Shown here in pieces: positions 4,412-20,959 of a DNA stretch of 20,959 nucleotides (the stretch's first letter is position 1; every line of letters begins with the position of its first letter). The stretch covers positions 1-20,959 of the forward strand of contig JAKLPX010000358.1 in the NCBI GenBank assembly GCA_022013635.1, read 5' to 3'. The translations under genes and the position numbers were made by a program. This stretch comes from Candidatus Delongbacteria bacterium (GTDB lineage: Bacteria > UBA4055). A model generated the notes under the pieces. The model searched no databases, had not been told where the DNA came from, and saw nothing but the letters and a program-made list of their open reading frames with translations.

Positions 4412-4425
4412 AGTTGCCTCTTATA

Positions 4426-4953: not shown

Positions 4954-4982
4954 TATTCAATTTCCTTGTTTGAGATTTCTTA

Positions 4983-5573: not shown

Positions 5574-5587
5574 TTCGCAACTCCTTA

Positions 5588-6133: not shown

Positions 6134-6156
6134 TTTATTATCCCATAAGTTTTATC

Positions 6157-6939: not shown

Positions 6940-6984
6940 TACCCCTCCCTTAAGCTTTACTAATCAGTTCTCAATAATTAAAAA

Positions 6985-7012
6985 AAAAGGGGGTAATTGC
7001 CAACCCCCTTTT
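6985..7012 (-). terminator. Intrinsic terminator after the first pilin gene
   Basis: Read on the - strand, a perfect 10-bp stem (AAAAGGGGGT paired with ACCCCCTTTT) with an 8-base loop is followed by further T residues (the + strand has nine A from 6980 to 6988). It lies 14 bases after the pilin D stop codon and before chaperone 2, inside the operon. The expected effect is partial termination, so that pilin D mRNA is in excess over chaperones, other pilins and usher. Confidence 0.85.
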
Positions 7013-7026
7013 GTATTTATTGATTA

Positions 7027-7884: not shown

Positions 7885-8109
7885 ATGGAAGTACACGAAT
7901 TGAATTGTCTCGGACTAAAATGCCCGCAACCGATTTTGAAAGTAGTGGCAAAGATTCCCGCCATTCCGGCAGGGGATATATTAGAGGTAAAGGCCGACTG
8001 TCCGTCTTTCCCGAAAGATATAAAAGCATGGTGCGACAGGACGGGAAAAACCTTGATGTTCTGCATGGATGAGGGAAACGGAGCTTACAGCGCACAGATC
8101 CAGCTGTAA
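7885..8109 (+). CDS. tusA: TusA-family sulfur carrier protein
   Basis: A 74-residue protein, the normal TusA size. The start ATG at 7885 has TAAGGAG with a 7-base spacer; an in-frame ATG at 7852 has a poorly spaced site. The family signature CLGLKCPQPILK is complete; Cys13 in CPxP is the residue that carries the persulfide in known TusA proteins. The rest (GDILEVKADCPSFPKDIKAWCDRTG) fits the beta-alpha TusA fold. TusA proteins hand sulfane sulfur to thiouridylation, molybdenum cofactor or sulfur-oxidation enzymes; relatives are also found in selenium metabolism. As first gene of an operon with three UGA-containing mvhD genes and Hdr subunits, it may supply sulfur or selenium or act as a substrate of the Hdr complex. 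Those roles are inferences; the family call is firm. Confidence 0.9.
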   Translation: MEVHELNCLGLKCPQPILKVVAKIPAIPAGDILEVKADCPSFPKDIKAWCDRTGKTLMFCMDEGNGAYSAQIQL

Positions 8110-8135
8110 AATTTTATAGCTGGAGATAAGAATAT

Positions 8136-8558
8136 ATGGAAGAATTCAAACCTAAAATAGTAGGATTTTTATGTAACTGGTGCACTTATGCGGCCGCCGA
8201 TATGGCAGGTGCTGCAAAAACTAAACTGCCTTCTTCGTTCAATGTAGTAAGGATAATGTGTTCCGGCAGAGTGGATCATAATCTCCTGCTTACGACATTT
8301 TTCAACGGCGCCGACGGCATTCTCGTAGCCGGCTGACATCCGGGAGACTGCCATTACCAGGTCGGTAATTATTACACACGAAGAAGATTCGCATTGCTCA
8401 AAAAAGTATTCCAGACACTTAGTATTGATCCTGAAAGATTTCAACTGACATGGATATCCGCTTCCGAAGGGAATAAATACGGGCAGGTTGTAAACGGATT
8501 TACCGAAAAGATAGCTAAGATGGGTCCAAACCCGCTTAAAAAAGATCTGAACTTATAA
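8136..8558 (+). CDS. mvhD: MvhD-type [2Fe-2S] electron transfer subunit 1, selenocysteine-containing (UGA at 8334-8336)
   Basis: A 140-residue protein if the in-frame TGA at codon 67 is read as selenocysteine; without that it would stop at 66 residues. The downstream frame is intact to TAA at 8556 and codes for the second half of the family (HPGDCHYQVGNYYTRRR, then TWISASEG near the end). Family ligands are in place: Cys13, Cys16 (CNWC), Cys42 (MCSGRVD), Sec67, Cys72. In MvhD/FrhD homologues the motif is GCHPGDCHY, so UGA replaces exactly the conserved Cys; Sec in MvhD relatives (methanogen VhuD, BamF of class II benzoyl-CoA reductase) is established. It passes electrons between a partner reductase and HdrA, and the hdrA-a gene follows after 14 bases. 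The ribosome site GGAGATAAG precedes the ATG. Confidence 0.9.
8334..8369 (+). promoter_or_regulatory. Sec UGA and candidate bacterial SECIS hairpin 1
   Basis: UGA at 8334-8336. Sixteen bases later comes a perfect 6-bp hairpin, ATTACC (8353-8358), loop AGGTC, GGTAAT (8364-8369). The loop contains AGGUC, as in the apical loop of the E. coli fdhF SECIS whose G and U contact SelB. The stem lies a few bases further from the UGA than in fdhF but within the range seen for bacterial SECIS elements. Confidence 0.65.
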
Positions 8559-8572
8559 GACGGGAATGATAA

Positions 8573-9859
8573 ATGAGCAGTAATGAAAATATATTGGTGA
8601 TCGGTTCGGGCGTAGCGGGGATGGAGGCGTGCATTATGCTGTCAAAAGCCGGAAAGAAAGTCTATCTTGTTGAGAAACTGCCGATAATAGGCGGAAAAAC
8701 TATTAAGAATGAAGAGACTTTTCCGAATCTTGACTGTTCCACCTGCCTTGTAGCTCCGATCCAGCAGGCAATTCTTCAGGACAAGAACATTGAAGTATTT
8801 ACATACAGTAAAGTTGAAAAAGTATCCGGACAGCGCGGAAATTTTAGTGTGACGATAAGAAAAAAAGCAAGATTCGTCAGTCTGGAGCTTTGTCTGGGAT
8901 GCGGAATGTGCTATGAACCCTGCCCTGTTTCACTCCCAAACGAATGGGAAGAGAATTTGATGGAAAAGAAAGCGGTATATGTGCCGTGTTCCGGGTCACT
9001 GCCGAATGTTCCGGTAATAGATGCCGAAAAATGCCTTCATTTGAACGGGACAGACCGAAGCTGTAATATATGTGTTGACTCCTGTATGTTCGCCGCAATT
9101 GATCTTGATGATAAAGATCAGATAATAGAAATTATTGCTTCAGAAATAATCGTCGCCGCGGGATTTGATCTTTACGATGTAAGTCAAATTGACCGATTCG
9201 GCTACGGAAAATATCAGGGTGTATATACTTCAATGGAATTTGAAAGGCTGTTCGCATCGAACGGGCCGACAGAGGGCAAAATTATAACGAGAAACGGAAA
9301 AATCCCCGAAAGCGTTGCGATAATACAGTGTGCCGGCAGAGAAGAGTCGGGATATTGTTCCGCAATTTGCTGCATGTCATCGTCAAAGCACGCTCACTTA
9401 ATAAAAGACAAGCTTCATAGCGTGAAAATATATAATCTGTATTCGGACTCATGCCTTACGGACAAAAATTATCAGAAATTCCATCAGAGCGTGAGATCAA
9501 ACGATTCCGAATATATCTTTCAGTCCGATATGAAAAGTGTTAAAGTAACCGAAGAGGAAGGCAAACTCAAAATTTCTTATTTGTACGGAAAGAATGAAGA
9601 TTCCGTGATTGTTGATATGGTGATACTTGCCAATTCGCTCAAGCCTTCAAATGGAATCGGAGAATTGACAGAGATTCTCGGAATAGATGTTGACAAGTTC
9701 GGTTTTATAAGTGTCGAACCTTATGAGATCGGATCCGTCGAAACCACAAAAGCAGGGATCTTTGTTGCCGGCTGTGCGGAAGGCCCCAAGGATATTCAGA
9801 GCTCGATACTTCAAGCTGAAGCCGCTGTGGCAGGCGTGCTGGCAATTGCAAAAGTTTAA
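8573..9859 (+). CDS. hdrA: HdrA-like FAD/iron-sulfur protein, N-terminal-type half (HdrA-a)
   Basis: A 428-residue flavoprotein that lacks the usual HdrA N-terminal cluster domain and C-terminal ferredoxin domain. Residues 7-35 are the FAD-binding VIGSGVAGMEA loop and EK strand end. DCSTC (Cys55, Cys58) is the HdrA CxxC before the second FAD strand. Residues about 100-180 are the inserted ferredoxin domain: CLGCGMCYEPCP from Cys107, and CLHL...CNICVDSC, for two 4Fe-4S clusters. QCAGREESGYCSAICC and the closing GIFVAGCAEGPKDIQSS loop are typical of HdrA/QmoA. It aligns in layout with residues 1-430 of the fused HdrA at 14231. Role: FAD-based electron splitting or relay in an Hdr-type complex, fed by MvhD1 just upstream. 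A QmoA-like function is the main alternative. Confidence 0.85.
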   Translation: MSSNENILVIGSGVAGMEACIMLSKAGKKVYLVEKLPIIGGKTIKNEETFPNLDCSTCLVAPIQQAILQDKNIEVFTYSKVEKVSGQRGNFSVTIRKKARFVSLELCLGCGMCYEPCPVSLPNEWEENLMEKKAVYVPCSGSLPNVPVIDAEKCLHLNGTDRSCNICVDSCMFAAIDLDDKDQIIEIIASEIIVAAGFDLYDVSQIDRFGYGKYQGVYTSMEFERLFASNGPTEGKIITRNGKIPESVAIIQCAGREESGYCSAICCMSSSKHAHLIKDKLHSVKIYNLYSDSCLTDKNYQKFHQSVRSNDSEYIFQSDMKSVKVTEEEGKLKISYLYGKNEDSVIVDMVILANSLKPSNGIGELTEILGIDVDKFGFISVEPYEIGSVETTKAGIFVAGCAEGPKDIQSSILQAEAAVAGVLAIAKV

Positions 9860-9871
9860 TAAAGGTCGAAT

Positions 9872-11533
9872 ATGAGTGATAAGATCGGTATATTTGTATG
9901 TGAATGCGGACCCAATATCGCGGGTAGAGTAGATATTGACAAGATCGTGAAGGAAATTTCGGAACTTAAGGATTTTAACGATAAAGAGCTTGTCGTAAAA
10001 AAACATAAGCTTCTCTGCTCGGTTGGCGGGAAAAAATTTCTTGAAGAGGAAATCAAATCGAATAATCTTACTCACATGGTTTGTGCGGCTTGTTCCCCGA
10101 GAGATCACGATACTACTTTTATAAATGTATGCAAAAAAACACAGATGAATCCGTATCTATATACAATGGTAAATATAAGAGAGCATTGCGCATGGGTAAT
10201 ACCCGATAAAGAAGAGGCAACAAAAAAGGCTATACAATATATACACGGTGGCATAAACAGGGTTTTTTATCAGGAAGAACTTTTCGAAAAACAGCTGGAA
10301 AGCAATCCCGATGTGCTTGTTATAGGCGGCGGGATCGCAGGAATTGAGTCTGCATTGAATCTCGCATCAGAAGAGAGGACTGTGTATTTAATCGAAAAAG
10401 CACCCGAACCCGGCGGTAAAACCATGCAGGGATCGAATCTTAACTTTATTCGGCAAAAGACGGCAAAACTGCTCAATAATCCGAATGTAAAGATATTCAC
10501 AAACACAAAACTTGAGAACATTATCGGGTTTCAGGGAAATTTCGAAATAGTAATCAAAAATATTATCAGTAACGAATTGACCGAATTCATGGCAGGCGCC
10601 GTGATCATAGCGACCGGATATGACCTGCTCGATTGTAAGGGATCTGAATATTTTAATTTTACAGATAAAGATGATGTTTTTTCCGGGTTGGAGATAGAAG
10701 CCCTTATGTCTGCCCAGAAAAAAATTGTCAAAAAGAACGGTAAAGCTCCGTCTTCTGTCGGTATGGCGCACTGCGCAGGAAGGGAAAAAGTGGGTTACTG
10801 TTCAAAGATCTGCTGCAATTATTTACTCAAGATATCCGGTTATTTAAAAACAATGTATCCGGATATTCCAATTCGCCATTATGTTAAGGAATTGTGCCTT
10901 CCGAATAAAGAAAATCAATCATATTATAATGAAATGAAAAGCGGTGGAGTTGAATTTCAATATGTTAAATCGCTTAACTTAAACGGAGAGACTGTAAATT
11001 ATACGGACATTTACGGTAATGCGGGAGAATCCGCTCACGATATGATAGTTTATGCACAGGCAATGATCCCTGCATCCGGCTCAAATGAATTGGCGAAACT
11101 GCTTAATACCGATCTGGATGAATTCGGGTTTTATAAGGAAGCTCATTTAAAGATAGATCCGATATCAACTTCAAACGACGGTATCTTTGCTGTCGGAGCG
11201 GCGCACGGACCGGCGGATGTAACGGATTCCGTCATTCAGGCAAAAGCCGCTGTCGCAAAAATATCCGTTCAGCTTATTCCGGGGCAAAAGATAATTCCCG
11301 AAGTCAAAGTATCAGAAATTCTCGAAGCTTATTGTACAGGCTGTCAAACCTGTCTGCAAATATGTAAATACGGCGCGATCTATTTTGACGATGAGAGAGC
11401 CGTATCGGTAGTAAACGAAGCTGTATGCAGAGGATGCGGAAACTGCGTGGGTAGCTGTCCGTCCGGATCTATAAGGTCAAAGCATTTCACAAATCCGCAA
11501 TTATTCCAGGAAGTAAAAGAAGCTGTAAGGTAG
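9872..11533 (+). CDS. hdrA: HdrA-like FAD/iron-sulfur protein, C-terminal-type half (HdrA-b)
   Basis: A 553-residue protein starting at an ATG with AAAGG 6 bases before it. Residues 1-140 form the HdrA N-terminal cluster domain (IFVCECGPNIAGRVD, CAACSPRDHD, NIREHCAW). FAD binding starts near residue 147 (LVIGGGIAGIES). Two features of canonical HdrA are absent: the CxxC after the first FAD strand (here GSNLNFI) and the inserted ferredoxin domain. HCAGREKVGYCSKICC is kept. The C-terminal ferredoxin domain has CTGCQTCLQIC from Cys488 and CRGCGNCVGSCP from Cys519. It therefore complements HdrA-a: together they equal the fused protein at 14231-17287. Twelve bases separate it from HdrA-a. Likely the partner of HdrA-a in one heteromeric unit. 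Confidence 0.85.
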   Translation: MSDKIGIFVCECGPNIAGRVDIDKIVKEISELKDFNDKELVVKKHKLLCSVGGKKFLEEEIKSNNLTHMVCAACSPRDHDTTFINVCKKTQMNPYLYTMVNIREHCAWVIPDKEEATKKAIQYIHGGINRVFYQEELFEKQLESNPDVLVIGGGIAGIESALNLASEERTVYLIEKAPEPGGKTMQGSNLNFIRQKTAKLLNNPNVKIFTNTKLENIIGFQGNFEIVIKNIISNELTEFMAGAVIIATGYDLLDCKGSEYFNFTDKDDVFSGLEIEALMSAQKKIVKKNGKAPSSVGMAHCAGREKVGYCSKICCNYLLKISGYLKTMYPDIPIRHYVKELCLPNKENQSYYNEMKSGGVEFQYVKSLNLNGETVNYTDIYGNAGESAHDMIVYAQAMIPASGSNELAKLLNTDLDEFGFYKEAHLKIDPISTSNDGIFAVGAAHGPADVTDSVIQAKAAVAKISVQLIPGQKIIPEVKVSEILEAYCTGCQTCLQICKYGAIYFDDERAVSVVNEAVCRGCGNCVGSCPSGSIRSKHFTNPQLFQEVKEAVR

Positions 11534-11543
11534 AGGAACGACT

Positions 11544-12698
11544 ATGGATAAAAATGTTCCGCAGGGTGTAAAACTCGGTTCAAAAGATAAACACAAAGAA
11601 GCGGCGGTTGATCTTGTCCGGTCTGCAATGAAATCCGGTGTTATAGATTCTGCGCTTCTTCCGATGGAAGTCCCTTCGGGAGATTCTTACGCATGGATGC
11701 TGATAAAGGACGAAGCATTTTTAGCGAAGGCGGAACCGTTTGCGCCGACAATGCCGGTAAATGCCGCCAATGCCGTGAAAAGATTGACAAGAAAGGGGAC
11801 GGGCAAGTATAAAACTGCCGTATTAATAAGACCATGTGAGGTCAGAGCGGCTGTTGAGCTGGTTAAATTGAATCAGGCGCATCTTGACGATCTACTGCTT
11901 ATCACTTACGACTGCGTAGGCGCTGTGCCGACGGATGATTATATAAAAGATCCGGCAGGCAAAAATAAAGCCTTCAAGACAGCTTTAGTATCGGGTAATT
12001 TCAATTCAGGAATAATGAAAGAAGTCTGCTCATTCTGTACCGATTTCAGCCGGACATCCTCCGATCTTCACCTGTCGCTGACGGACGATGGTATTTTTCT
12101 TTCTTCAAATAATGTAAAAGGCGATGATTTTCTTAAAAATATGAAACTGGAAGCGAAAGCAGACCTGTCAAAATGGTATGAAAAGATCGAAAGCATCAGT
12201 TCGGTCAGGAAAAATAAAAAGGTACAAATTTTCGAAAAAATAAAGAAGGATGTGGACGGACTTATAAATTTTCATAAAATATTTGAAAACTGCATAGGAT
12301 GCCATAGCTGCGGAAGTGTCTGCCCGATCTGTTATTGCAGGCAGTGCTTTTTCGATTCGACGGTCAATGAACAGAATTCCGATCTCAAATTTATCAGAGC
12401 GCGGCAGAAAGGCGTACTTTCTTTTCCTCCAGACAAACTGATGTTCCATATCGGCAGACTTTCCCACATGAGTTTATCATGCGTATCCTGCGGATTGTGT
12501 TCCGATGCCTGCCCCGTTGATATTCCCGTCGCAAGCGTATTCAGCTATGTCGCAGACCAAACTCAGTCTGCATTCGATTACAAGTCCGGAAACAGCGTCG
12601 GAGACGCGCTGCCGATGCGTGATTATAAGTTAGAAGAACTCGGTGAACTCGGAGAGCTTTCAAAAAGTGTTGACAGGCAGGAGGGCGCAGATGCTTAA
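11544..12698 (+). CDS. FrhB/FdhB-like iron-sulfur subunit 1
   Basis: A 384-residue soluble protein. The N-terminal 230 residues resemble the beta-subunit family of F420 hydrogenase/formate dehydrogenase (IRPCEVRAAVEL, then LLLITYDCVGAVPTDDY, then CSFCTDFS). The C-terminal part is a dicluster ferredoxin: CIGCHSCGSVCP from Cys250 continuing as ICYCRQC, and CVSCGLCSDACP from Cys313. The three extra cysteines after the first motif are shared with the proteins at 12691 and 17731. In known Flx-Hdr and FdhAB-Hdr systems such proteins relay electrons between a dehydrogenase and MvhD/HdrA. Whether it binds a flavin cannot be told. Ribosome site AGAGGA; its end overlaps the next gene by 8 bases. Substrate-specific activity is unknown. 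Confidence 0.7.
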   Translation: MDKNVPQGVKLGSKDKHKEAAVDLVRSAMKSGVIDSALLPMEVPSGDSYAWMLIKDEAFLAKAEPFAPTMPVNAANAVKRLTRKGTGKYKTAVLIRPCEVRAAVELVKLNQAHLDDLLLITYDCVGAVPTDDYIKDPAGKNKAFKTALVSGNFNSGIMKEVCSFCTDFSRTSSDLHLSLTDDGIFLSSNNVKGDDFLKNMKLEAKADLSKWYEKIESISSVRKNKKVQIFEKIKKDVDGLINFHKIFENCIGCHSCGSVCPICYCRQCFFDSTVNEQNSDLKFIRARQKGVLSFPPDKLMFHIGRLSHMSLSCVSCGLCSDACPVDIPVASVFSYVADQTQSAFDYKSGNSVGDALPMRDYKLEELGELGELSKSVDRQEGADA

Positions 12699-13782
12699 AG
12701 CAACAATTAAAAAAGACAGAAATACTGCGGTAAAAGATATTGCAAAATTCCTTTTGGACAGCGGTAAGATCAGCGGTGTATTTACATTAAAGAAATTTGA
12801 AGGAGCATCAAATGCGGATTACGGATTGATAACGGATCCGGCGCTTCTGGATTTTATACAGCCTTTCTTCCCGATCATGCCTCAGAACGCAGGCAAGACA
12901 TTAACGAAATTAACAAAGATAGATAAACCGATACTTGTTATCATCAGGCCTTGCGAGCACAGAGCTTTTATTGAAATGGTAAAGAGAGAGCAGGGAACTA
13001 CAGATAATTTTATCATAATAACTTATACTTGCGGCGGTGTAATTCCTTTAAAAGACCACGCAAAAGGACTCAAAGAAGGTGAACTGGATAAATATTGGAC
13101 TGATGTTCAAAAAAGTATCAATCCCGATACGATAAGGGATAACTGCCGGAGATGCGAACACTTTTATCCGGACAATTCAGATATTCTTGTGTCTGTTCTC
13201 GGATCTTCGGAAGACAGCACTGACATATACATAAATAATGAAAGAACAAAAACGATCCTTGAAGGATTTGATATATCACTTATCGCAGGGAAATTCGATG
13301 CATCAAGCCTTAAAAATATAATCGCAGAAAGAGCAGCCGAAAAGGAAAAACAGTTTAAAGCTGTTGATAAGAGCGGTAAAGGGCTCGACGGGCTTGTAGA
13401 AATATTCGGAAAATGTATCGGCTGCAGGGGATGTAATTCCGTATGCCCGATATGCTACTGTGCGCAATGTGATTTCGCATCCGCAAATTTCGATTACAAT
13501 AAAATGATCCTTGAGAAGGAACTTGATCAGAAAGGCGCGTTAAGATTACCGCCCGACACGATCTTCTTTCATATCGGAAGAATGTCCCATATTGCGTTTT
13601 CATGCGTAGGATGCGGGCAGTGTTCGGATGTATGCCCGGCAGGCATTCCGGTAGGCACTGTATTCAACAGAGCGGGAGAAAGCGTGGCCGGCGAATTTGA
13701 TTTCGTACCCGGAAGAAGCGCAGACGAAAAAATACCCGTGACGATATACAAGGAACAGGAATTTCCAGAACTTGGAGAGTGA
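12691..13782 (+). CDS. FrhB/FdhB-like iron-sulfur subunit 2
   Basis: A 363-residue paralogue of the preceding gene product. The ATG at 12691 is chosen because AGGAGG lies 6 bases before it; an upstream in-frame GTG at 12643 lies deep in the previous gene. Motifs in order: LVIIRPCEHRAFIEM, FIIITYTCGGVIP, NCRRCEHF, then CIGCRGCNSVCP from Cys242 with ICYCAQC, FHIGRMSHIAFSC, and CVGCGQCSDVCP from Cys305. The same domain plan as subunit 1 implies duplication, and two different copies kept side by side suggest a heterodimer or a two-step relay. It ends with UGA used as a normal stop, 2 bases before the ATG of mvhD2. Function as an electron-transfer subunit is inferred from context. Confidence 0.7.
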   Translation: MLKATIKKDRNTAVKDIAKFLLDSGKISGVFTLKKFEGASNADYGLITDPALLDFIQPFFPIMPQNAGKTLTKLTKIDKPILVIIRPCEHRAFIEMVKREQGTTDNFIIITYTCGGVIPLKDHAKGLKEGELDKYWTDVQKSINPDTIRDNCRRCEHFYPDNSDILVSVLGSSEDSTDIYINNERTKTILEGFDISLIAGKFDASSLKNIIAERAAEKEKQFKAVDKSGKGLDGLVEIFGKCIGCRGCNSVCPICYCAQCDFASANFDYNKMILEKELDQKGALRLPPDTIFFHIGRMSHIAFSCVGCGQCSDVCPAGIPVGTVFNRAGESVAGEFDFVPGRSADEKIPVTIYKEQEFPELGE

Positions 13783-13783
13783 A

Positions 13784-14209
13784 ATGAAAAATAAAAATTC
13801 ACTAAAAATAGTAAGTTTTTTATGTAAGTGGTGTTCATATACAGGAGCCGACCTTGCAGGCATTAACAGATCGCAGTATCCTACGGCAATTTTACCGATC
13901 AAAGTGATGTGTTCAAGCAGGATTGATCCGGTTTTTCTTATCAAGTCATATCTGAGAGGAGCCGACGGTATCCTCGTCGGAGGCTGACATCCGGGCGATT
14001 GCCATTACCAGGTAGGTAATTATCATGCAAGAAGAAGGATCAAGATCGTTAAAACATTATTTAATTCTCTCGGACTTGATGACGAAAGGCTCAGACTTTC
14101 ATGGATATCTGCTTCCGAGGGTCAAAAATTTGCTCAATTAGGCAATGAATTTACGGATAAGATACTAAGCAAAGGCGAAAATGATGCTAAAAAAAATATA
14201 TTCTTATAG
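13784..14209 (+). CDS. mvhD: MvhD-type [2Fe-2S] electron transfer subunit 2, selenocysteine-containing (UGA at 13985-13987)
   Basis: A 141-residue protein when UGA codon 68 is decoded as selenocysteine. The frame continues cleanly to TAG at 14207. The start is ATG 13784 with GGAG about 6 bases upstream; a TTG at 13772 lies within the preceding gene and is rejected. Family ligands: CKWC at 14 and 17, Cys43 in MCSSRID, Sec68 and Cys73 in the G-U-HPGDCHY motif. SWISASEG is again near the C terminus. It sits between the FrhB-like pair and the fused HdrA, so it is the likely electron bridge from the former to the latter. The protein is clearly related to the products at 8136 and 17309 but not identical, so this is old duplication and not a recent repeat. 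Confidence 0.9.
13985..14020 (+). promoter_or_regulatory. Sec UGA and candidate bacterial SECIS hairpin 2
   Basis: UGA at 13985-13987, then after 16 bases the same 6-bp stem, ATTACC (14004-14009) with GGTAAT (14015-14020), closing a loop of AGGTA. The distance from the UGA is identical to that in mvhD1 and mvhD3, and GU is kept in the loop. Confidence 0.65.
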
Positions 14210-14230
14210 ATTTCCGGCGGGGAAAATTTT

Positions 14231-17200
14231 ATGGGTTTAAAAAGCAGAGCTGTAATGGTAGCAGGAGCGGGAATAGCAGGAATTCAAGCCGCTTTAGACC
14301 TCGCTGAGATGGGAATAAAGGTACATCTTGTTGAAGAATCACCGTCAATAGGCGGGAGAATGCCTCAATTGGATAAAACATTTCCCACAAATGATTGTTC
14401 GATGTGTATTCTTTCTCCGAAGATGAGCGAGAGCGTGAGACATCCGAATATAAAGATATATACGACAACTACAATTGATTCCGTATCCGGTATTCCCGGT
14501 GATTTTACGGCGAAAATTGTTGAACGGGCCAAATATATTGATCAGGAAAAATGCGTTTCATGCGGATTATGCGAAGAAAAATGTCCGGTAAAAGTTGACG
14601 ATATCTTTGATATGAAGCTTCGTAAAAGAGGCGCTGTTTCCAGATATTTTTTACAAAGTATTCCATCCGAATACACGATTGATCCGCATAATTGTTTATA
14701 TTTGAATAAAGGCGTCTGCCGTTTATGCGAAAAAGTATGTCCGGCAGGGGCTATAAATTTTGATGATAAGGATAAAATATTCGAGATCAATGTCGGCGCT
14801 ATAATTCTTTCAGGCGGTATTGACTCGTATGATCCGATCCACTTGGGTAATTTCGGATACCGCAGGTATAAGAATGTAGTGACTTCACTCGAGTTTGAAA
14901 GGATGCTGTCGGCATCCGGACCACTCGGCGGACATGTTGTGAGACCCGGCGACCATAAAGAACCCAAAAGCCTTGCCTTCATACAATGCGTCGGATCAAG
15001 AGACGAGAACATCAATCATAATTACTGCTCTTCAGCCTGCTGTATGTTTGCGATAAAAGAGGCGATGATAGCCAAAGAACACATAAAGGATTTAGAATCA
15101 ACCGTATTCTATATGGATATCAGAGCATTCGGAAAGGATTTTGACAAATACTACGAAAAATCCAAAGATAAATACGGAGTCGAGTATATAAAATCCAAAG
15201 TGTCTGATATATCTGAAGACGACGATGGTAATTTAATTCTAAAATATGTTTATGAGAACGGTGATATTTCTCATAAGCAATTCGATATGGCAGTTCTTGC
15301 CGTCGGCCTGCAGCCCAGAAAAAGCATAGTTAATTTATCGAAATCATTGAATTTTAAACTTAATGAATTCGGGTTCTGCAGATCTGATACGAACTTACCG
15401 CTGGCTACAACCCGCGAAGGGATTTTTGTCTGCGGGGCAATGAACGGACCAAAAGACATTCCCGAATCGGTAACTGCAGCATCCGGCGCCGCAGCCGAAA
15501 CCTTAAAGTTCCTTAGATTGGAAAGGCAGGATATTTCTGCCGAAAAGGATGCTGTTCAGGAAAAGGATGTCGCCGGAGACAGGCCGAGAATAGGCGCGTT
15601 CGTATGCCATTGCGGTATCAATATAGCCGGCGTGGTTGATGTAAAAGATGTTGCCGAACACGCAAGACATCTGCCCAATGTCGAATATGCAGAAGATCTT
15701 ATTTACGCCTGTTCTCAGGACTGTATGAACACGATCAAGGAAAGAATAAAGGAATATGACCTTAACAGGATCGTCGTAGCGGCATGTACCCCGAGAACAC
15801 ACGAGCCGCTTTTCAGAGAAACGATAACCGAAGCGGGATTAAACCCGTATTTATTTGAAATGGCCAATATCAGGGACCAGTGTTCATGGGCGCACATGAA
15901 TGAACCTTGGCTTGCAACGGTAAAATCAAAAGACCTTATGAGTATGGGAGTTGCCAAAGCGAGGGAATTAAAACCGCTAAAGAGACTTCCCATTGAGATT
16001 AATCCTAAAGCAATGGTGATCGGCGGCGGTTTGGCCGGCATGACGACTGCGATATCGCTTGCCGAAGCCGGACATGAAGTCTATTTAATCGAAAAAGAAA
16101 ATGAACTCGGCGGAAACCTAAGAAATATTTTCTTTGATTTTGACAGCGATCCGCAGGTTCTTTTGGCTGATACTATATCAAAGGCGGAATCAAACGAATT
16201 GATACATATTTATAAAAATGCAATAATAAAAAAGATTGACGGTTTCGTAGGAAATTTTTCAACGACTGTCACCGGCAATAATAAAAATGAAGAAATAAGT
16301 TTCGATCACGGTGTCGTCATAATCGCCACAGGAGCAGATGAGCATGTGACTGAAGAGTATCTTTACGGCAGATCAGACAGGATAGTATCACAGGTCGAAT
16401 TGGAAGACATATTAAAGACAAGGAAATTTCCCGGTACAAGAAAACCGAAGAATGTCGTTATGATCCAATGCGTCGGTTCCCGCGAAGAAGGCAAAATGTA
16501 CTGCAGTAGAGTTTGCTGTACAAAAGCGGTTAAAAATGCAGGCGTCTTAAAGAATATTTTACCGAATGTGAATATTTATATAATTTACAGAGATATAAGA
16601 ACCTACGGTTTCAGAGAGAAACATTATTCCGAACTCAGAGACAAAGGAGCAATGTTCATACATTATACGCCTGAGAATAAACCGATAGTTGAACTGGTAA
16701 ATGAAAAGGATACGGACAGTCAGGTAAAGGTAACGGTTTTCGATCCGATAGTTAATAAAAACATTGAAATTCAGGCTGATATGCTGGTATTGGCAACTGC
16801 GATTGACGCAAAGAAAGAGAATATTGATCTCGTAAAAATGCTGAAAGTATCTTTGAATACGGACGGAATGTTTTTGGAAGCGCATGTTAAACTTCGCCCG
16901 GTTGATTTTGCCACCGACGGTATTTTCGTCGCCGGACTGGCTCACTGCCCGAAAGACTGCGATGAAAGTATTACTCAGGCAAAAGCCGCTGCAAGCAGAG
17001 CGCTTACTTTCCTGAATAAAAAAGCCATTCTCGCGGAAGGAACGATCTGCGAAGTCAACGACAGCCGCTGTACCGGATGCGGTTACTGTGTTCATATCTG
17101 CGCTTATAACGCGATCGAGCTTGATCCTGAAAAAGGAACAGCCCGAGTTAATGATGCGTTGTGCAAGGGCTGCGGTGCGTGCGTGGCTTCATGCCGCTGC

Positions 17201-17287
17201 GGTGCGCTTGACCTTAGGGGATTCACGAACGGACAGATGTTCGGCGTATTTGATTCGCTTGAAATGACGAATGTAATAGATGAATAA
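14231..17287 (+). CDS. hdrA: Double HdrA fusion protein (HdrA-a plus HdrA-b in one chain)
   Basis: A 1018-residue protein of two HdrA units. Residues 1-430: FAD loop VAGAGIAGIQAAL, CxxC in NDCSMCILSPKM, inserted ferredoxin domain (CVSCGLCEEKCP from Cys108; CLYL...CRLCEKVCP), CVGSRDEN...YCSSACC, and GIFVCGAMNGPKDIPES. A charged linker follows to about residue 452. Residues 453-1018: N-terminal cluster domain (FVCHCGINIAGVVD, Cys459/Cys461; VVAACTPRTHEPLF; NIRDQCSWAH), second FAD loop VIGGGLAGMTTA, CVGSREEG..YCSRVCC, and a C-terminal ferredoxin (CTGCGYCVHIC from Cys947, then CKGCGACVASC). The second FAD unit lacks the CxxC and the inserted ferredoxin, just like HdrA-b. HdrA is the FAD-bifurcating subunit in methanogens; double-length relatives are known, for example BamE-like proteins. 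It follows mvhD2 and precedes mvhD3. Confidence 0.9.
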   Translation: MGLKSRAVMVAGAGIAGIQAALDLAEMGIKVHLVEESPSIGGRMPQLDKTFPTNDCSMCILSPKMSESVRHPNIKIYTTTTIDSVSGIPGDFTAKIVERAKYIDQEKCVSCGLCEEKCPVKVDDIFDMKLRKRGAVSRYFLQSIPSEYTIDPHNCLYLNKGVCRLCEKVCPAGAINFDDKDKIFEINVGAIILSGGIDSYDPIHLGNFGYRRYKNVVTSLEFERMLSASGPLGGHVVRPGDHKEPKSLAFIQCVGSRDENINHNYCSSACCMFAIKEAMIAKEHIKDLESTVFYMDIRAFGKDFDKYYEKSKDKYGVEYIKSKVSDISEDDDGNLILKYVYENGDISHKQFDMAVLAVGLQPRKSIVNLSKSLNFKLNEFGFCRSDTNLPLATTREGIFVCGAMNGPKDIPESVTAASGAAAETLKFLRLERQDISAEKDAVQEKDVAGDRPRIGAFVCHCGINIAGVVDVKDVAEHARHLPNVEYAEDLIYACSQDCMNTIKERIKEYDLNRIVVAACTPRTHEPLFRETITEAGLNPYLFEMANIRDQCSWAHMNEPWLATVKSKDLMSMGVAKARELKPLKRLPIEINPKAMVIGGGLAGMTTAISLAEAGHEVYLIEKENELGGNLRNIFFDFDSDPQVLLADTISKAESNELIHIYKNAIIKKIDGFVGNFSTTVTGNNKNEEISFDHGVVIIATGADEHVTEEYLYGRSDRIVSQVELEDILKTRKFPGTRKPKNVVMIQCVGSREEGKMYCSRVCCTKAVKNAGVLKNILPNVNIYIIYRDIRTYGFREKHYSELRDKGAMFIHYTPENKPIVELVNEKDTDSQVKVTVFDPIVNKNIEIQADMLVLATAIDAKKENIDLVKMLKVSLNTDGMFLEAHVKLRPVDFATDGIFVAGLAHCPKDCDESITQAKAAASRALTFLNKKAILAEGTICEVNDSRCTGCGYCVHICAYNAIELDPEKGTARVNDALCKGCGACVASCRCGALDLRGFTNGQMFGVFDSLEMTNVIDE

Positions 17288-17308
17288 CAAATTATAACCG
17301 GAGTATTG

Positions 17309-17731
17309 ATGAAAGAATGGGAACCGAAAATATTGGCATTATTATGCAACTGGTGCTCGTATGCAGGCGCAGACTTGGCCGGAGTATCGAGAATGCAGTA
17401 TCCTGCAAATGTCAGAGTTATAAGAATACCATGTTCCGGCAGAGTTGATCCGCTTTTCATTATGAAAACACTGCAAAGCGGGTATGACGGTCTATTCGTA
17501 TCCGGCTGACATCCGGGCGACTGCCATTACCTGTCAGGTAATTTCATTGCAAGAAGAAAATTTGCGGCTATAAAGCCGTTATTGGAATATATCGGTATCG
17601 AGCCCGAAAGAGTTCAGTTCTCGTGGATCTCTGCGGGAGAAGGCGAAAGATTCGCTAAGATAATTGAAAAGATATCCAACGATATAAAAAGAATAGGCCC
17701 TGCCGAAAGACTTGTAAAAGGAGTAGTGTGA
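17309..17731 (+). CDS. mvhD: MvhD/FlxD-type [2Fe-2S] subunit 3, selenocysteine-containing (UGA at 17507-17509)
   Basis: A 140-residue protein if UGA codon 67 is selenocysteine; the frame then runs to UGA at 17729-17731, which acts as a true stop and overlaps the next ATG by one base. The start ATG 17309 has GGAG with a 5-base spacer. Ligands: CNWC at 13 and 16, Cys42 in PCSGRVD, Sec67 and Cys72 in the G-U-HPGDCHY motif. SWISAGEGERFAK occupies the C-terminal part as in other MvhD proteins. Being followed directly by FlxC-, FlxB-, FlxA-like genes and hdrC, it takes the position of FlxD in flxDCBA-hdr clusters, linking the NAD(P)H-side reductase to HdrA. One gene thus contains UGA with two meanings. 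Confidence 0.9.
17507..17542 (+). promoter_or_regulatory. Sec UGA and candidate bacterial SECIS hairpin 3
   Basis: UGA at 17507-17509. The hairpin begins after 16 bases as in the other two copies but is one pair longer: ATTACCT (17526-17532), loop GTC, AGGTAAT (17536-17542). The change in the loop-proximal bases is compensated (T with A), keeping a closed stem with GU at the top. Confidence 0.65.
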
Positions 17732-18696
17732 TGCTGCAGGAATTAAAGGATACGGTTAAAAAGCTGATATCGGAGAAAAAAGTTGATATCGTCATCGGAT
17801 GGAAGCGGGGAACACTGCCCGGCTCCGCATCTCCCCTGTTTATTCAAACTCAGGAAGATGCCGATGAGCTGATCTTTGACAGTACATGCAGAAATAATCT
17901 TACTGCATATCTCACAAAAGACAAAAGAAAAATGTCTAAAGATTATAAGAAGACAGGCATTATTGTCAAAGGCTGTGACGCAAGGTCGGTTGTCTTATAT
18001 GCGGTTGAAAATCAGGTTAAAAGAGAAAACATTTTTCTGATAGGAGTACCGTGCGAAGGTGTTTACGAAAAGAAGAAGATCAGAGCAGCAGTTGACGGAA
18101 AGGAAATTTTAGGGATAAAAAAGTCCGGCAATGCCGTAACCATTACAGGAAGGGACTTCGAGATCGCAGTGCCTGATAAAGATGTTTTATCGGATTCGTG
18201 CATTTATTGCAGATACCCCGATGCTTTGGAGTATGATGTTTTTATCGGAGAGCCGAGGAAGGAAGTTGATGTTAAGGATGAATTCGCGGCAGTAAAAGAA
18301 TTTGAGAAAAAAACTTCCGAAGAAAGATGGGAATACATTAAGTCCGAATACTCAAAATGTATCCGCTGTTATGCCTGCAGAAATGTTTGCCCTTCATGCT
18401 ACTGTAATGAATGTTTCGTAGATCAGAACAATCCTCAATGGATCGGCAAGACTCCCGAAATGACAGATTCGATAATTTTCCATCTAATAAGAAATTTACA
18501 TACAGCCGGAAGATGCGTTGACTGCGGATCATGCGTGTCTGCCTGTCCGGCGGAAATAGATCTCCGTATCATGAGCAAAAAGGTGGAAAAAGAAATTAAG
18601 GAAAGGTTTGATTACACTGCAGGGCTTGATATAAATGAAAAACCTGTAATGGCAACCTTTTGCGAGCACGAAAAACAAGATTTTATAATGAGTTGA
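17731..18696 (+). CDS. flxC: FrhB/FdhB-like iron-sulfur subunit 3 (FlxC-like)
   Basis: A 321-residue soluble protein, shorter than the two paralogues at 11544 and 12691. The ATG at 17731 has AAAGGAG 7 bases before it; a GTG one codon earlier is not preferred. The N-terminal region contains IVKGCDARSVVLYAV and IFLIGVPCEG, the beta-subunit-type fold core, and CIYCRYPDALEYDV. The C-terminal dicluster part has CIRCYACRNVCP from Cys210 with SCYCNEC, and CVDCGSCVSACP from Cys262. It lies between MvhD3 and the FlxB-like gene, the place of FlxC in Flx loci. Expected role: 4Fe-4S relay between the NAD(P)H reductase part and MvhD3. The letter C follows gene order and is less sure than the family. Confidence 0.65.
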   Translation: MLQELKDTVKKLISEKKVDIVIGWKRGTLPGSASPLFIQTQEDADELIFDSTCRNNLTAYLTKDKRKMSKDYKKTGIIVKGCDARSVVLYAVENQVKRENIFLIGVPCEGVYEKKKIRAAVDGKEILGIKKSGNAVTITGRDFEIAVPDKDVLSDSCIYCRYPDALEYDVFIGEPRKEVDVKDEFAAVKEFEKKTSEERWEYIKSEYSKCIRCYACRNVCPSCYCNECFVDQNNPQWIGKTPEMTDSIIFHLIRNLHTAGRCVDCGSCVSACPAEIDLRIMSKKVEKEIKERFDYTAGLDINEKPVMATFCEHEKQDFIMS

Positions 18697-18698
18697 AA

Positions 18699-19754
18699 AT
18701 GTTGAAAATTAAAAAAGAAAATATAAATACTCTGCTGGAAGAACTGATGAAGGACTATCAGGTGTATGCTCCGGTAAAAAACGGTTCTAAAGCCGCGTTT
18801 AAAGTTATTGAAAATCCTGATGATATTTTTACCGGTCATGTTAAATCCGAGTATTCGCCGAAGAGCGTATTTTTCCCTCAGTCCGAAGTTCTTTTCGAAT
18901 ATTCTAAAGAAGGCGTCAGTATTCCCGAAAAGAAAGAGAAACCGTACCTGCTTTGGGGAGTCAGGAACTGTGATACAAAAAGCATAAGGATGCTGGACAA
19001 AGTTTTCGGTAACGCAAGACAGGCTCCCGACAAAGACATGTACAAAGATCCGTACTGGAAGCAGAAATATGATACGAGCATAATCTTCAATTTTGCTTGT
19101 AACGCGCCTCTGACAACCTGTTTCTGCAACTGGTTCGGGAGTGGACCGTTTGATGAATCCGGCTCTGATATTTTTGTCGTTGAAACAAAAGACGATCTTA
19201 TCTTCAAAGGAATTTCAGAAAAAGGTAAAGAGCTTCTGAAGAAATTATCCGTATCGGAAATTTCGGACAAAAAAGATGAGGAAGCTGTTTCAGAACTAAA
19301 AGAAAAGGCAGTATCTATGATGCCTGAAGTTACGGATATTTCAGCATTATACGAAAAACTGCCAAAATTATGGAATGAACCGATCTGGCAGGAAATATCT
19401 TCCAAGTGTGTCAACTGCGGAGCCTGCGCTTTTATCTGTCCTACCTGTCACTGTTTCGATGTTTCCGATGAGGGAAAGAACGGAAAAGGAAAAAGGGTCA
19501 GATTGTGGGATTCATGCATGTTCCCGATCTTCACAATGGAAGCTTCAGGTCATAACCCGAGAGGAAATTCTGTTGATCGCGTCAGACAAAGAGTAATGCA
19601 TAAATTCAATTATTTCAAAGACAATTACGGAACACATCTGTGTACCGGCTGCGGAAGGTGCGTTGTCGTGTGCCCCGTAAATCTCGACATAAGAGATGTG
19701 ATAAAAGATATAATTAATTATGAATTAAATAAAAAGGTACCTGCCGATGTGTAA
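18699..19754 (+). CDS. flxB: 4Fe-4S dicluster subunit of AsrA/HydB type (FlxB-like)
   Basis: A 351-residue protein. The start is ATG 18699, two bases after the preceding stop; a TTG at 18660 inside the previous gene is rejected although no strong ribosome site precedes 18699. Landmarks of the anaerobic sulfite reductase A / sulfhydrogenase beta family: LWGVRNCDTKSIRMLD, DPYWKQKYD, CNAPLTTCFCNWFGSGPF, and GADIFVVET-like SGSDIFVVET. Two cluster motifs follow, CVNCGACAFICP from Cys237 running into TCHCFDV, and CTGCGRCVVVCP from Cys315, separated by the typical RLWDSCMFPIFTMEASGHNPR segment. In AsrAB and HydBG this subunit pairs with the FAD/NAD(P)H subunit, which is the next gene here (8-base overlap). 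Role: electron relay from NAD(P)H to the Hdr side. Confidence 0.75.
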   Translation: MLKIKKENINTLLEELMKDYQVYAPVKNGSKAAFKVIENPDDIFTGHVKSEYSPKSVFFPQSEVLFEYSKEGVSIPEKKEKPYLLWGVRNCDTKSIRMLDKVFGNARQAPDKDMYKDPYWKQKYDTSIIFNFACNAPLTTCFCNWFGSGPFDESGSDIFVVETKDDLIFKGISEKGKELLKKLSVSEISDKKDEEAVSELKEKAVSMMPEVTDISALYEKLPKLWNEPIWQEISSKCVNCGACAFICPTCHCFDVSDEGKNGKGKRVRLWDSCMFPIFTMEASGHNPRGNSVDRVRQRVMHKFNYFKDNYGTHLCTGCGRCVVVCPVNLDIRDVIKDIINYELNKKVPADV

Positions 19755-20577
19755 CGGTTATTTACCTATTCAGATGAGGGTTGACAAAGTCCTGACGGAA
19801 AATCCGGATAAGACCCTTAAAACTTTTGAACTGTCTTTCTTAAAAGATAACGACAGAGAGAATTTTAAGTATATGCCCGGCCAATTCTGCGAGTTTTCGA
19901 TCACGGGAAAAGGCGAATCGCCTTTTGGTATTGCGTCGTCCCCGACCGAAAAGGATATTCTTAAGTTCACGGTCAACAGGACAGGTTCGGTCACAAAAGA
20001 GATACATTATCTTCGTCCCGGAGACATTGTCGGAGTAAGAGGCCCGCTCGGTAATTGGTATCCTGTCGGGAAATTTAAAGGCGGCGATGTTGTGATTATC
20101 GGGGGCGGATTTGCTTTTACGACCCTGAGGTCGCTTCTGGTCTATATGCTTGAACACAGGTCTGACTACGGCAAGATCACGGTCATTTACGGTGCAAGAA
20201 ATCCCGACTTATTCATCTATAAGGAAGAGCTCGAAGCATGGGATAAAAGGAATGACCTGATCCTTCATCTTACGATTGATAAAGCGGTTGAAGGCTGGAC
20301 GAAACTCTGCGGATTTGTCCCGACTGTTACAAAGGAAGTAAAACTTGATCCGAAGTCATGGGCGGTAGTCTGCGGGCCTCCGGTCATGATCAAGTTTACT
20401 CTGCCGGTGCTTAAAGAGATAGGTTTTAATGACGGCATGGTTTATACATCTCTCGAAAGACGGATGAAATGCGGGATCGGCAAATGCGGAAGATGCGGGA
20501 TCGGCTCAAAATATGTCTGCATAGACGGGCCTGTCTTTTCATTAGAAGAATTGAAGAATATACCCGAAGCTTTTTAG
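19747..20577 (+). CDS. flxA: FAD/NAD(P)H reductase subunit with [2Fe-2S] site (FlxA/AsrB/HydG-like)
   Basis: A 276-residue ferredoxin-NADP reductase-fold protein. FAD domain: MPGQFCEFSITGKGESPFGIASSP near residues 43-66 and RGPLGNWYPVGKF. NAD(P) domain: VVIIGGGFAFTTLRSLL, VIYGARNPDLFIY, and CGPPVMIKFT. C terminus: cysteines 242, 247, 250 and 258 in KCGIGKCGRC...YVC, the [2Fe-2S] motif of the PyrK/HydG/AsrB family. Reaction: two-electron exchange between NAD(P)H and the cluster chain. It is the only pyridine-nucleotide enzyme seen in the operon, so it probably sets NAD(P)+/NAD(P)H as one redox partner of the whole complex. It overlaps the AsrA/HydB-type gene by 8 bases and lies 15 bases before hdrC. 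NADH versus NADPH preference cannot be told from the sequence. Confidence 0.85.
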   Translation: MCNGYLPIQMRVDKVLTENPDKTLKTFELSFLKDNDRENFKYMPGQFCEFSITGKGESPFGIASSPTEKDILKFTVNRTGSVTKEIHYLRPGDIVGVRGPLGNWYPVGKFKGGDVVIIGGGFAFTTLRSLLVYMLEHRSDYGKITVIYGARNPDLFIYKEELEAWDKRNDLILHLTIDKAVEGWTKLCGFVPTVTKEVKLDPKSWAVVCGPPVMIKFTLPVLKEIGFNDGMVYTSLERRMKCGIGKCGRCGIGSKYVCIDGPVFSLEELKNIPEAF

Positions 20578-20592
20578 TAAAGGAGAATTTGA

Positions 20593-20959
20593 ATGGATAA
20601 GATTATTTTAAGCGAAATGGACTCTAATTTTAAAAACGAGATCGCCTCCCGTCCGGGAGCAGAGCATTTTCAAAGATGTTTTACATGCGGGACCTGTACC
20701 GCCGCCTGCCCGGTAGCTGAAGTACATGAAGAGTATGACCCGAGGAGAATCATCAGAATGTGCATTCTCGGGATGAAAAAAGAAGTTCTTTCATCCGATT
20801 TGCTATGGATGTGCTCAAGATGCTATACATGTTACGCGCTTTGCCCGCAGGGAGTGAAATTCTCCGATGTTTTGGATATTTTAAGAGAAATGGCCGTAAA
20901 AGAAGGATATGTGCCAAAAGAAAGATATAATAACGCAAAAGAGCTGGATAAACAGCTGC
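20593..20959 (+). CDS. hdrC: Heterodisulfide reductase subunit C-like ferredoxin protein, 3'-truncated by the window edge
   Basis: The first 122 codons are visible; HdrC proteins are usually near 190 residues. The start ATG follows AAAGGAG with a good spacer. Two classical 4Fe-4S motifs with HdrC context are present: CFTCGTCTAACPV from Cys29, followed by YDPRRIIRMCILGM, and CSRCYTCYALCPQGV from Cys74, followed by FSDVLDILREMAVKEGY. There is no membrane segment in the visible part, so a soluble HdrC and not a DsrM/HdrE-linked one is likely. HdrC passes electrons from HdrA to HdrB, which holds the non-cubane clusters that reduce disulfides in methanogens. An hdrB gene is expected just beyond the right edge. 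Confidence 0.9.
   Translation, partial: MDKIILSEMDSNFKNEIASRPGAEHFQRCFTCGTCTAACPVAEVHEEYDPRRIIRMCILGMKKEVLSSDLLWMCSRCYTCYALCPQGVKFSDVLDILREMAVKEGYVPKERYNNAKELDKQL

Follow-up and report, generated by a model that had tools for sequence, protein, structure and literature searches.

A stretch of 20,959 nucleotides (hereafter the window), corresponding to contig JAKLPX010000358.1 (C338) of a Candidatus Delongbacteria genome (GCA_022013635.1, here G000; 2.04 Mb in 413 contigs, 82% complete), was found to carry at 7885-20959 an operon of 13 plus-strand genes, recognised from open reading frames (ORFs) and family profile matches. The gene order is tusA, mvhD1, hdrAa, hdrAb, frhB1, frhB2, mvhD2, hdrAA, mvhD3, flxC, flxB, flxA and the 5' part of hdrC (Table 1), the window ending with the contig, which cuts the last gene. 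We tentatively read the operon as encoding an electron-bifurcating Hdr-type system that would act on sulfane sulfur bound to TusA, together with NADH and ferredoxin, and that would probably work in the reductive direction. Judged from its protein families, the system would be cytoplasmic and soluble. This reading is based on what was seen directly: which genes are present and in what order, their orthology across lineages, the conserved residues for cofactors and for bifurcation, and the sulfur genes around the operon in relatives.

The initial annotation of the window had described a tight operon of at least 12 genes, and this is real: families and gene order were verified, and the spacing runs from -8 to +26 bases (26, 14, 12, 10, -8, 1, 21, 21, -1, 2, -8 and 15 bases, in gene order). 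Its gene list was right as far as it went, tusA (7885-8109) lying within its coordinates and being left out of its text, and its remark that FlxA is the only catalytic input enzyme holds for the window genes. Promoters or terminators separating the modules, named there as evidence against a single assembly, were sought by a scan of the window, and both counts were at chance level (12 terminator-like signals vs a chance mean of 12.3; 34 promoter-like signals vs a mean of 29.7). The same scan contains a perfect sigma-70 consensus, TTGACA-16-TATAAT, at 17942-17969 on the minus strand within flxC.

Sulfur-transfer genes around the operon in relatives

Close relatives that share the operon belong to Candidatus Delongbacteria (L006, QKDR01000029.1, SZUA-455; and L007, GH31). 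Among 13 genomes of the family, a strong FrhB1 match was found in five carriers (G000, G005, G009, G010 and G012), the other eight having a weak match or none. With the contig of G000 ending inside hdrC, the sequence to the right of the window was read from relatives. In G010 (L006, L041), G005 (L043) and G012 (L049), the genes after hdrC (158-164 aa) encode, in order, another TusA, a YedE-type transporter (PF04143), a pair of rhodanese-domain proteins, a porin-like protein, one more rhodanese and an HdrA of 1485 aa with a GltD-like domain, this last gene being cut in G005 by the end of the stretch read; an FrhB-family gene stands before this HdrA gene in G005 and G012. The Pfam identifications given here come from the G010 proteins and the FrhB-family protein of G005. 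The contig of G009 goes no further than the second TusA. The initial annotation had proposed looking to the right of the window for hdrB, an aldehyde oxidoreductase-like subunit, and acyl-CoA or formate enzymes; what the three close relatives show there is TusA, YedE, rhodaneses, porin and GltD-containing HdrA, and no HdrB.

On the other side, genes for DsrE (PF13686/PF02635) and TusA precede MvhD1 in relatives. TusA stands before MvhD1 in eight of the 15 genome-contig loci (L006, L007, L009, L012, L014, L015, L017 and L018), DsrE being complete in seven of these eight and L007 lying at a contig end; five loci are cut at the TusA place (L008, L010, L013, L016 and L020), and two are without TusA (L011 and L019). 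In taxonomic terms, TusA in front of or within module 1 was seen in Delongbacteria, Stahlbacteria, WOR-3, Dehalococcoidia and a single bin labelled Deltaproteobacteria (Myxococcota in the taxonomy listing); TA06 (L013) has the rest of module 1. In L008, TusA and YedE are found inside module 1, between HdrAb and FrhB1. The window TusA is 85% and 78% identical to the two TusA of L006, and Cys13 of its CPxP motif is kept in 15 of 15 aligned rows, paralogs counted in. DsrE of this type was found in three of the 13 family genomes, all of them carriers (G005, G010 and G012), and a strong form of YedE in the four carriers other than G000. Further DsrE-TusA(-DsrE) genes were observed away from the operon in L064 (G012 C199) and L066 (G005 C99).

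The large HdrA of about 1485 aa has a GltD/NfnB-like domain and is type III-like (L041, 6729-11186, minus strand; L049, 9110-13567; L016, 2584-6957, minus strand). Its place is beside or close to the Flx module, in Delongbacteria as well as on one WOR-3 contig; a large GltD-containing HdrA is also present in M. thermoacetica (PMC9430772).

Two separable modules

By synteny and tree topology, the operon is composed of two modules, TusA-MvhD1-HdrAa-HdrAb-FrhB1-FrhB2-MvhD2 (module 1) and HdrAA-MvhD3-FlxC-FlxB-FlxA-HdrC (module 2). Three modules, each headed by an MvhD, had been proposed in the initial annotation; the synteny of L012, L014, L016 and L018 and the groups of the MvhD tree give two. 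MvhD2 as the head of a module with the HdrA fusion was discarded, since it follows FrhB2 in L012, L013, L014, L015, L016 and L018. L012 (Stahlbacteria) has HdrAA-MvhD3-FlxC-FlxB-FlxA and TusA-MvhD1-HdrAa-HdrAb-FrhB1-FrhB2-MvhD2 in divergent orientation, and L016 (WOR-3) has the Flx module and the last part of module 1 in convergent orientation; lying on opposite strands in both loci, the modules are therefore separable. Module 1 of L014 ends with MvhD2, with no module 2 in the stretch read, and that of L018 is separated from an HdrAA by a hydrogenase set. The Flx genes flxA, flxB, flxC and flxD (mvhD) occur together with HdrA in the window and as the same set in L006 and L043, and the set is also present, partly cut, in L007, L012 and L016.

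In the trees, FrhB2 (100/99), FlxC (100/100), MvhD of position 1 (98/96) and MvhD of position 3 (100/100) each fall on one side of a branch. FrhB1 does not: 17 of its 20 rows form a group (100/99), the other three being distant and outside it. MvhD of position 2 forms one group (98/90) only when two rows from L010 and L011 are included. The modules are thus old units, inherited together and joined in Delongbacteria.

The MvhD-HdrA-FrhB-FrhB core also occurs in variant form, with no neighbouring TusA seen, in L010 (cut), L011 and L045/L046. A phylum-wide search around G033 gave matches at 1e-40 or better in nine of nine genomes, and the loci read (L045, L076 and L077) hold a related variant in which FrhB occurs with HdrBC. 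In L009, genes for two old-yellow-enzyme-type flavoproteins, the subunits of an electron-transfer flavoprotein (ETF) and an ETF-QO-like protein lie directly downstream of module 1 (9354-17140), and they possibly represent another electron partner.

Flavin sites, FdhB-like proteins and cofactors

E356 and K409 of M. thermolithotrophicus HdrA have been proposed as markers of bifurcation (PMC12054007). The Glu/Lys pair is present at all four HdrA flavin sites of the window. Across aligned rows, it is kept in HdrAa (E224/K272) in 12 of 12 and in HdrAb (E276/K320) in 11 of 12, L013 being without both residues, and the two pairs of HdrAA are kept in 12 and 13 of 15 rows; both are lost in L010 and L011, and the first in L046. 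The HdrAA alignment mixes orthologs with these three variants and others, and its list of invariant Cys is thus short. Among the best 120 of 2852 HdrAa homologs, Glu is present in 120 and Lys in 112, K272 being replaced by Arg in eight. HdrAa aligns to residues 139-556 of 8rvv_A, inserted ferredoxin domain included, and HdrAb comprises an N-terminal Fe-S domain, an FAD domain and a C-terminal ferredoxin domain, so that by alignment the two look like the halves of a two-flavin HdrA encoded as separate genes.

An extra Cys (Cys139) was found in the inserted ferredoxin domain of all 11 module-1 HdrAa, the window copy among them; the Mvh-linked L018_8734, set apart from this count, has Phe at that position. 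In the solved structures, read by eye, this position is occupied by Phe (8rvv_A, 5odc_A) or His (7bkb_A). Cys139 as a universal sulfur acceptor was weakened by the wider homologs considered below, and it is put forward as a candidate acceptor and a lead only.

FrhB1, FrhB2 and FlxC are FdhB-like by sequence comparison. In a search of the PDB, the closest solved relatives of FrhB1 and FlxC were FdhB/ElpB of Fdh-Hdr and Elp-Hdr complexes, and the predicted fold of FrhB1 is consistent with this, its best matches being 7bkb_E (E 2e-13, template-modelling score 0.65) and 8rvu_E. Only the fold match was used from this model, which has a mean pLDDT (predicted local distance difference test) of 70.9 and is low in the Fe-S region, with residues 249-327 under 50. 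Fifteen Cys are kept in 20 of 20 aligned rows of FrhB1 and 15 in 17 of 17 rows of FrhB2. As Elp illustrates, no working FdhA is needed for an FdhB-like arm to feed Hdr by way of an MvhD homolog (PMC12350162). Conserved Cys and families support at least five FAD (one each in HdrAa, HdrAb and FlxA, two in HdrAA), in line with the five or so first predicted, and the more than twenty Fe-S clusters of that prediction hold good, with roughly 30-35 estimated, counting four clusters per FdhB-like protein by analogy with ElpB/FdhB (PMC12350162).

Selenocysteine in MvhD

A single TGA lies in frame within each of the three FlpD/MvhD genes. At this selenocysteine (Sec) column, the other Delongbacteria copies also have TGA, as does L019, and every further copy read has Cys; selB scores above cut-off in G000 (contig C32). 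The three Sec residues noted at the outset are well supported, because TGA and Cys exchange across copies and selB is in the genome. Hairpins resembling selenocysteine insertion sequences at the three TGAs did not rise above shuffled sequences (z 0.36, 0.33 and -0.43) and Rfam gave nothing, a result that is uninformative either way. Additional Sec at the ends of frhB2 (TGA 13780-13782), mvhD3 and flxC was rejected, these TGAs being taken as ordinary stops.

Every MvhD found in L009, L012, L014, L015, L017 and L018 has Cys, and the linkage to TusA persists there. Since these six loci with Cys-MvhD only retain TusA, a role of TusA and YedE as a selenium supply was rejected.

HdrB, sulfite reductase and electron donors

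CCG, the HdrB domain, had no match on the contigs known to hold the operon (G005 C11, G010 C157, G012 C93/C154, G009 C432/C429 and C338). On other contigs, matches were found in G005 (C2, C73), G009 (C419, C337) and G010 (C126, C137), and none in G012. In G000, 82% complete, CCG matches fall in one protein only (C241), beside another HdrA, and the two HdrB-type CCG subunits with HdrA/HdrC that characterise sHdr were not found. The locus on C241 (L055, 138-11220) encodes on one strand an HdrA-MvhD fusion, HdrC, HdrB and a PF00890 FAD-binding protein, and also has succinyl-CoA-synthetase-type (PF08442), fumarase (PF05681) and malic-enzyme (PF03949) genes; it resembles the Hdr-TCA (tricarboxylic acid) cluster of Candidatus (Ca.) Celaenobacter (Cloacimonadota) in PMC8542988.

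Sulfite reductase (PF01077, NIR_SIR) was found in none of the 13 family genomes and in none of eight other carriers of the FrhB1 family, several of these genomes being incomplete and one of 0.8 Mb; 11 of 14 control genomes gave a match. Six of the eight other carriers (G049-G053 and G056) hold module 1 proper. RnfC is above cut-off in 10 of the 13 family genomes, G000 included (C118).

NiFe-hydrogenase genes adjoin module 1 in L013 (large subunit, PF00374) and in L017 and L018 (small subunits, PF01058). From these gene neighbourhoods, the electron donor side would hence vary, with NADH entering via Flx or H2 via hydrogenase, and DsrE-TusA-module 1 would be the constant part; because of this constancy, module 1 is assigned as the putative sulfur side.

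At E 1e-30 or better, 1039 FrhB1 homologs were found, and at 1e-40 or better 2852 HdrAa homologs. Source names among the best 120 of each include Cloacimonadota, Marinimicrobia, KSB1 and Armatimonadota, the comparison covering names and not gene context.

Proposed mechanism and its alternatives

In the mechanism that we favour, sulfur would be imported via YedE and rhodaneses, which look exported by eye, and would be loaded on TusA with the help of DsrE. Loaded TusA would be offered to module 1, that is, to MvhD1, the split type II HdrA, the two FdhB-like proteins and MvhD2. Module 2 would be the electron input: electrons would pass from NADH through FlxA, FlxB, FlxC and MvhD3 to the two-flavin HdrAA, which would split the pair, sending one electron down to ferredoxin, for Rnf and biosynthesis, and the other up through HdrC to module 1 and the persulfide, with release of sulfide. 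HdrC has no usual HdrB partner here and may hand its electrons to module 1 instead. H2 may replace NADH where module 1 sits beside NiFe-hydrogenase genes. TusA sulfane sulfur would be the high-potential partner and ferredoxin the low-potential product. We infer the existence of a physical complex, the persulfide substrate, the reductive direction and the HdrC link between the modules.

Several points weigh against this mechanism. The lack of HdrB beside the operon is the main weakness, as the normal disulfide-reducing subunit is missing and there is no proven sulfur catalytic site; HdrC-HdrB is moreover present in three module-1 relatives (L012, L013 and L017). TusA could serve another sulfur need instead, function being assigned here from sequence. 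DsrE was not found in the carriers G000 (82% complete) and G009, and the window operon starts at tusA. G000 has only a weaker YedE match (C392), and strong YedE also occurs in G003, G006 and G008, which are without module 1. The related FrhB-type core of L011 and L019 lacks TusA, RnfC is not above cut-off in the carrier G010, and the position of HdrAa Cys139 is Thr in 12 of the best 120 homologs (of 2852), with Cys in 108. Standard potentials are near -270 mV for S0/HS- and -320 mV for NADH, the former rising to about -150 mV at 0.1 mM sulfide; because S0/HS- lies only about 50 mV above NADH, bifurcation would need low sulfide. Finally, a similar cluster in Ca. Stygibacter has been read as oxidative (PMC8542988).

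This last point leads to the alternative that survives best, unlikely as we hold it to be, in which the system operates in reverse: sulfane sulfur on TusA, or sulfide, would be oxidised, and module 2 would confurcate the electrons from sulfur and from reduced ferredoxin to NADH. The oxidative sHdr complex, HdrC1B1A-HdrC2B2 with TusA, DsrE and LbpA, is fed by TusA/DsrE/rhodanese relays (PMC6067878), and the present system is like it in linking an HdrA-type core to such a relay (tusA in the window, DsrE in relatives). In Ca. Stygibacter, Hdr genes are clustered with TusA, a signal-peptide rhodanese (TST) and a transporter, with homologs in Ca. Tenebribacter, and sulfur oxidation was inferred for this cluster (PMC8542988), which shares Hdr, TusA, signal-peptide rhodanese and sulfur transporter with ours. 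It may be the same system, because an HdrAa homolog annotated to Ca. Stygibacter australis (P0173) is 58% identical to the window HdrAa; compared by description only, the available text of that paper does not mention FrhB, Flx or DsrE and does not describe a two-module layout. Against oxidation, sHdr has HdrB-type non-cubane sites and LbpA, whereas no CCG match lies on the operon contigs, no HdrB pair is seen, and MvhD, FdhB-like and Flx subunits are present; NIR_SIR was not found in the 21 genomes, several of them incomplete, no search having been aimed at LbpA, Sat, Apr or Soe, and the hydrogenase neighbours suggest H2 as a donor.

Less likely again is an ordinary Flx/Hdr NADH:ferredoxin:disulfide complex with another disulfide or thiol partner, TusA, DsrE and YedE then only providing sulfur for the many Fe-S clusters, or for selenium or thiolation. 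A Flx-like set with HdrA and MvhD and without HdrBC is known (Dred_0137-148; PMC4759654), and the window TusA matches the model of the selenium-metabolism protein YedF below cut-off (28.1 of 79 bits). FlxABCD-HdrABC of Desulfovibrio vulgaris, as cited in PMC4759654 and PMC9430772, likewise brings together the FlxA, FlxB, FlxC, FlxD (MvhD), HdrA and HdrC families, with NADH as presumed donor. The window differs from it in its two-flavin type II HdrA, the lack of HdrB beside it and Sec in MvhD, and in that its Flx set shares the operon with a TusA-MvhD-HdrA-FdhB module. Moreover, DsrE-TusA remains with module 1 in Cys-MvhD loci, and the downstream rhodaneses and porin suggest bulk import over cofactor supply.

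We regard as improbable a sulfur disproportionation of the YTD type, with modules 1 and 2 handling its two branches and sharing electrons via ferredoxin and NADH. The YTD cluster of sulfur disproportionators (PMC12998232, PMC9751629, PMC8780430, PMC9123182) comprises YedE, TusA and DsrE plus 2-3 conserved hypothetical genes; the first three, to which the comparison extends, surround the operon in relatives, though not all in G000. In Desulfurivibrio dismutans, YeeE/YedE likewise lies together with a porin and sulfurtransferases (PMC12142623). The present cluster differs in its attached Hdr/Flx modules and in that no PF01077 sulfite reductase was found in carriers; the disproportionators in the available text of these papers have Dsr/Apr/Sat, whereas NIR_SIR was not detected here in the 21 genomes. 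The complete YTD cluster is, in addition, confined to Desulfobacterota and Nitrospirota (PMC12998232).

A complex linked to formate, F420 or acyl-CoA (Fdh/Elp-like or Bam-like), its catalytic subunit being encoded elsewhere, has an equally slight probability: the FdhB/ElpB kinship of FrhB1 and FlxC, the naming of some FrhB1 homologs as formate dehydrogenase beta subunit in their sources and the ETF and old-yellow-enzyme-type genes after module 1 in L009 speak for it, and against it no FdhA, AOR or acyl-CoA subunit was found among the window genes or the scanned neighbours (a part of all neighbours, F420 genes not being searched), and Elp has FdhB-like arms with no catalytic FdhA (PMC12350162). 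Type II HdrA-MvhD-FdhB clusters of methane-metabolising archaea (PMC12054007) share with the window a two-flavin HdrA with both Glu/Lys pairs and MvhD, and Elp-Hdr (PMC12350162) shares MvhD and the FdhB-like arm without a working FdhA. Unlike both, the window has no molybdopterin-type subunit seen and no HdrB, TusA/DsrE are attached, and two different FdhB-like proteins occur in addition to FlxC.

The initial annotation had pointed to the Bam complex. The class II benzoyl-CoA reductase complex Bam has HdrA-like subunits and Sec-containing MvhD-like subunits. The likeness did not hold up, as no tungsten subunit (BamB) was found among the window genes or the Pfam-scanned neighbours, which cover part of the relatives' ORFs, and sulfur genes surround the cluster in relatives.

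The same annotation had proposed a new large bifurcating assembly. What stands is that the system is large, multi-adapter and probably bifurcating, and that none of precisely this composition was met in the literature searched; what does not is the novelty of the parts, module 2 being of a known Flx/type II HdrA kind and an Hdr-TusA-transporter cluster having already been noted in Cloacimonadota (PMC8542988). No such cluster appears in the available text of PMC13293266, PMC4911364, PMC5736913 and PMC5109826, and no earlier description of the same gene order was found in the literature searched, which consisted of openly available papers and not of subscription papers or preprints, no search having combined FdhB with TusA. 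Within that literature the two-module system seems undescribed: its parts are known, and their combination, in several lineages, seems not to have been described.

Gene features and neighbouring loci

Coordinates and the best evidence for each gene of the operon are collected in Table 1.

Table 1. Genes of the operon in the window.
Gene and predicted product	Position	Strand	Evidence
tusA, sulfur-carrier protein, 74 aa, CPxP motif	7885..8109	+	PF01206 E 1.1e-16
mvhD1, Sec codon 67 (TGA 8334-8336)	8136..8558	+	PF02662 E 3.6e-49; position-1 clade 98/96
hdrAa, N-half of split type II HdrA (FAD, inserted ferredoxin domain)	8573..9859	+	8rvv_A E 4e-82
hdrAb, C-half of split type II HdrA	9872..11533	+	7bkb_A E 1.8e-86, inserted ferredoxin domain skipped
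frhB1, FdhB/ElpB-like iron-sulfur (possibly flavo-) protein	11544..12698	+	9t1s_M E 5.3e-26
frhB2, paralogous FdhB-like protein	12691..13782	+	PF04432; ATG 12691; clade 100/99
mvhD2, Sec (TGA 13985-13987), last gene of module 1	13784..14209	+	PF02662 E 2.6e-47
hdrAA, type II (two-flavin) HdrA, 1018 aa, first gene of module 2	14231..17287	+	5odc_A E 4.9e-194
mvhD3 (= FlxD), Sec (TGA 17507-17509)	17309..17731	+	PF02662 E 6.6e-53; 5odc_D E 6.9e-49; stop 17729-17731
flxC, FdhB-like iron-sulfur protein	17731..18696	+	7bkb_E E 6.4e-30; clade 100/100
flxB, AsrA/HydB-like iron-sulfur protein	18699..19754	+	TIGR02910 E 3.5e-54 (under cut-off); 9nez_B E 2.2e-44
flxA, FAD/NAD(P)H oxidoreductase with [2Fe-2S] domain	19747..20577	+	PF00175, PF10418, PF00970
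hdrC, 5' part, runs off contig	20593..20959	+	TIGR03290 E 6.2e-28 (under cut-off)

FlxA resembles AsrB/HydG and scores under the profile cut-offs. The window HdrC is 90% identical over 122 aa to L006:19093-19458, where the complete protein has 164 aa; an identity as QmoC was not found, the truncated window HdrC scoring 76.9 vs a cut-off of 300 and the complete L006 copy having only those 164 aa.

To the left of the operon, the minus strand at 1135-7572 encodes a Fimbrial-usher-like protein (PF00577, 839 aa) plus six small adjacent ORFs, and is possibly a chaperone-usher-like pilus locus; none of the six small ORFs had an NCBIfam match, and none of the five scanned had a Pfam match. At 1-1131 on the plus strand lies a gene for a Fused MFS/spermidine synthase family protein (NF037959), truncated by the contig start.

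Implications

A broader proposal, which we consider somewhat unlikely, is a sulfur respiration free of HdrB and Dsr, in which a soluble complex built from two HdrA units of type II, three MvhD and three FdhB-like arms would reduce TusA-persulfide with NADH or H2 and make reduced ferredoxin, thereby conserving energy with no membrane sulfur reductase, in several anaerobic candidate phyla. If the favoured mechanism is right, it would account for the use of sulfur without Dsr by uncultured anaerobes (Delongbacteria, WOR-3, perhaps Cloacimonadota and others), and it would tie the sulfur relays of TusA directly to bifurcation at flavins. The gene order DsrE-TusA-MvhD-HdrAa-HdrAb-FrhB1-FrhB2-MvhD would then serve as a marker for finding it, and the cytoplasmic handling of S0 in anaerobes would become testable on one defined protein set.

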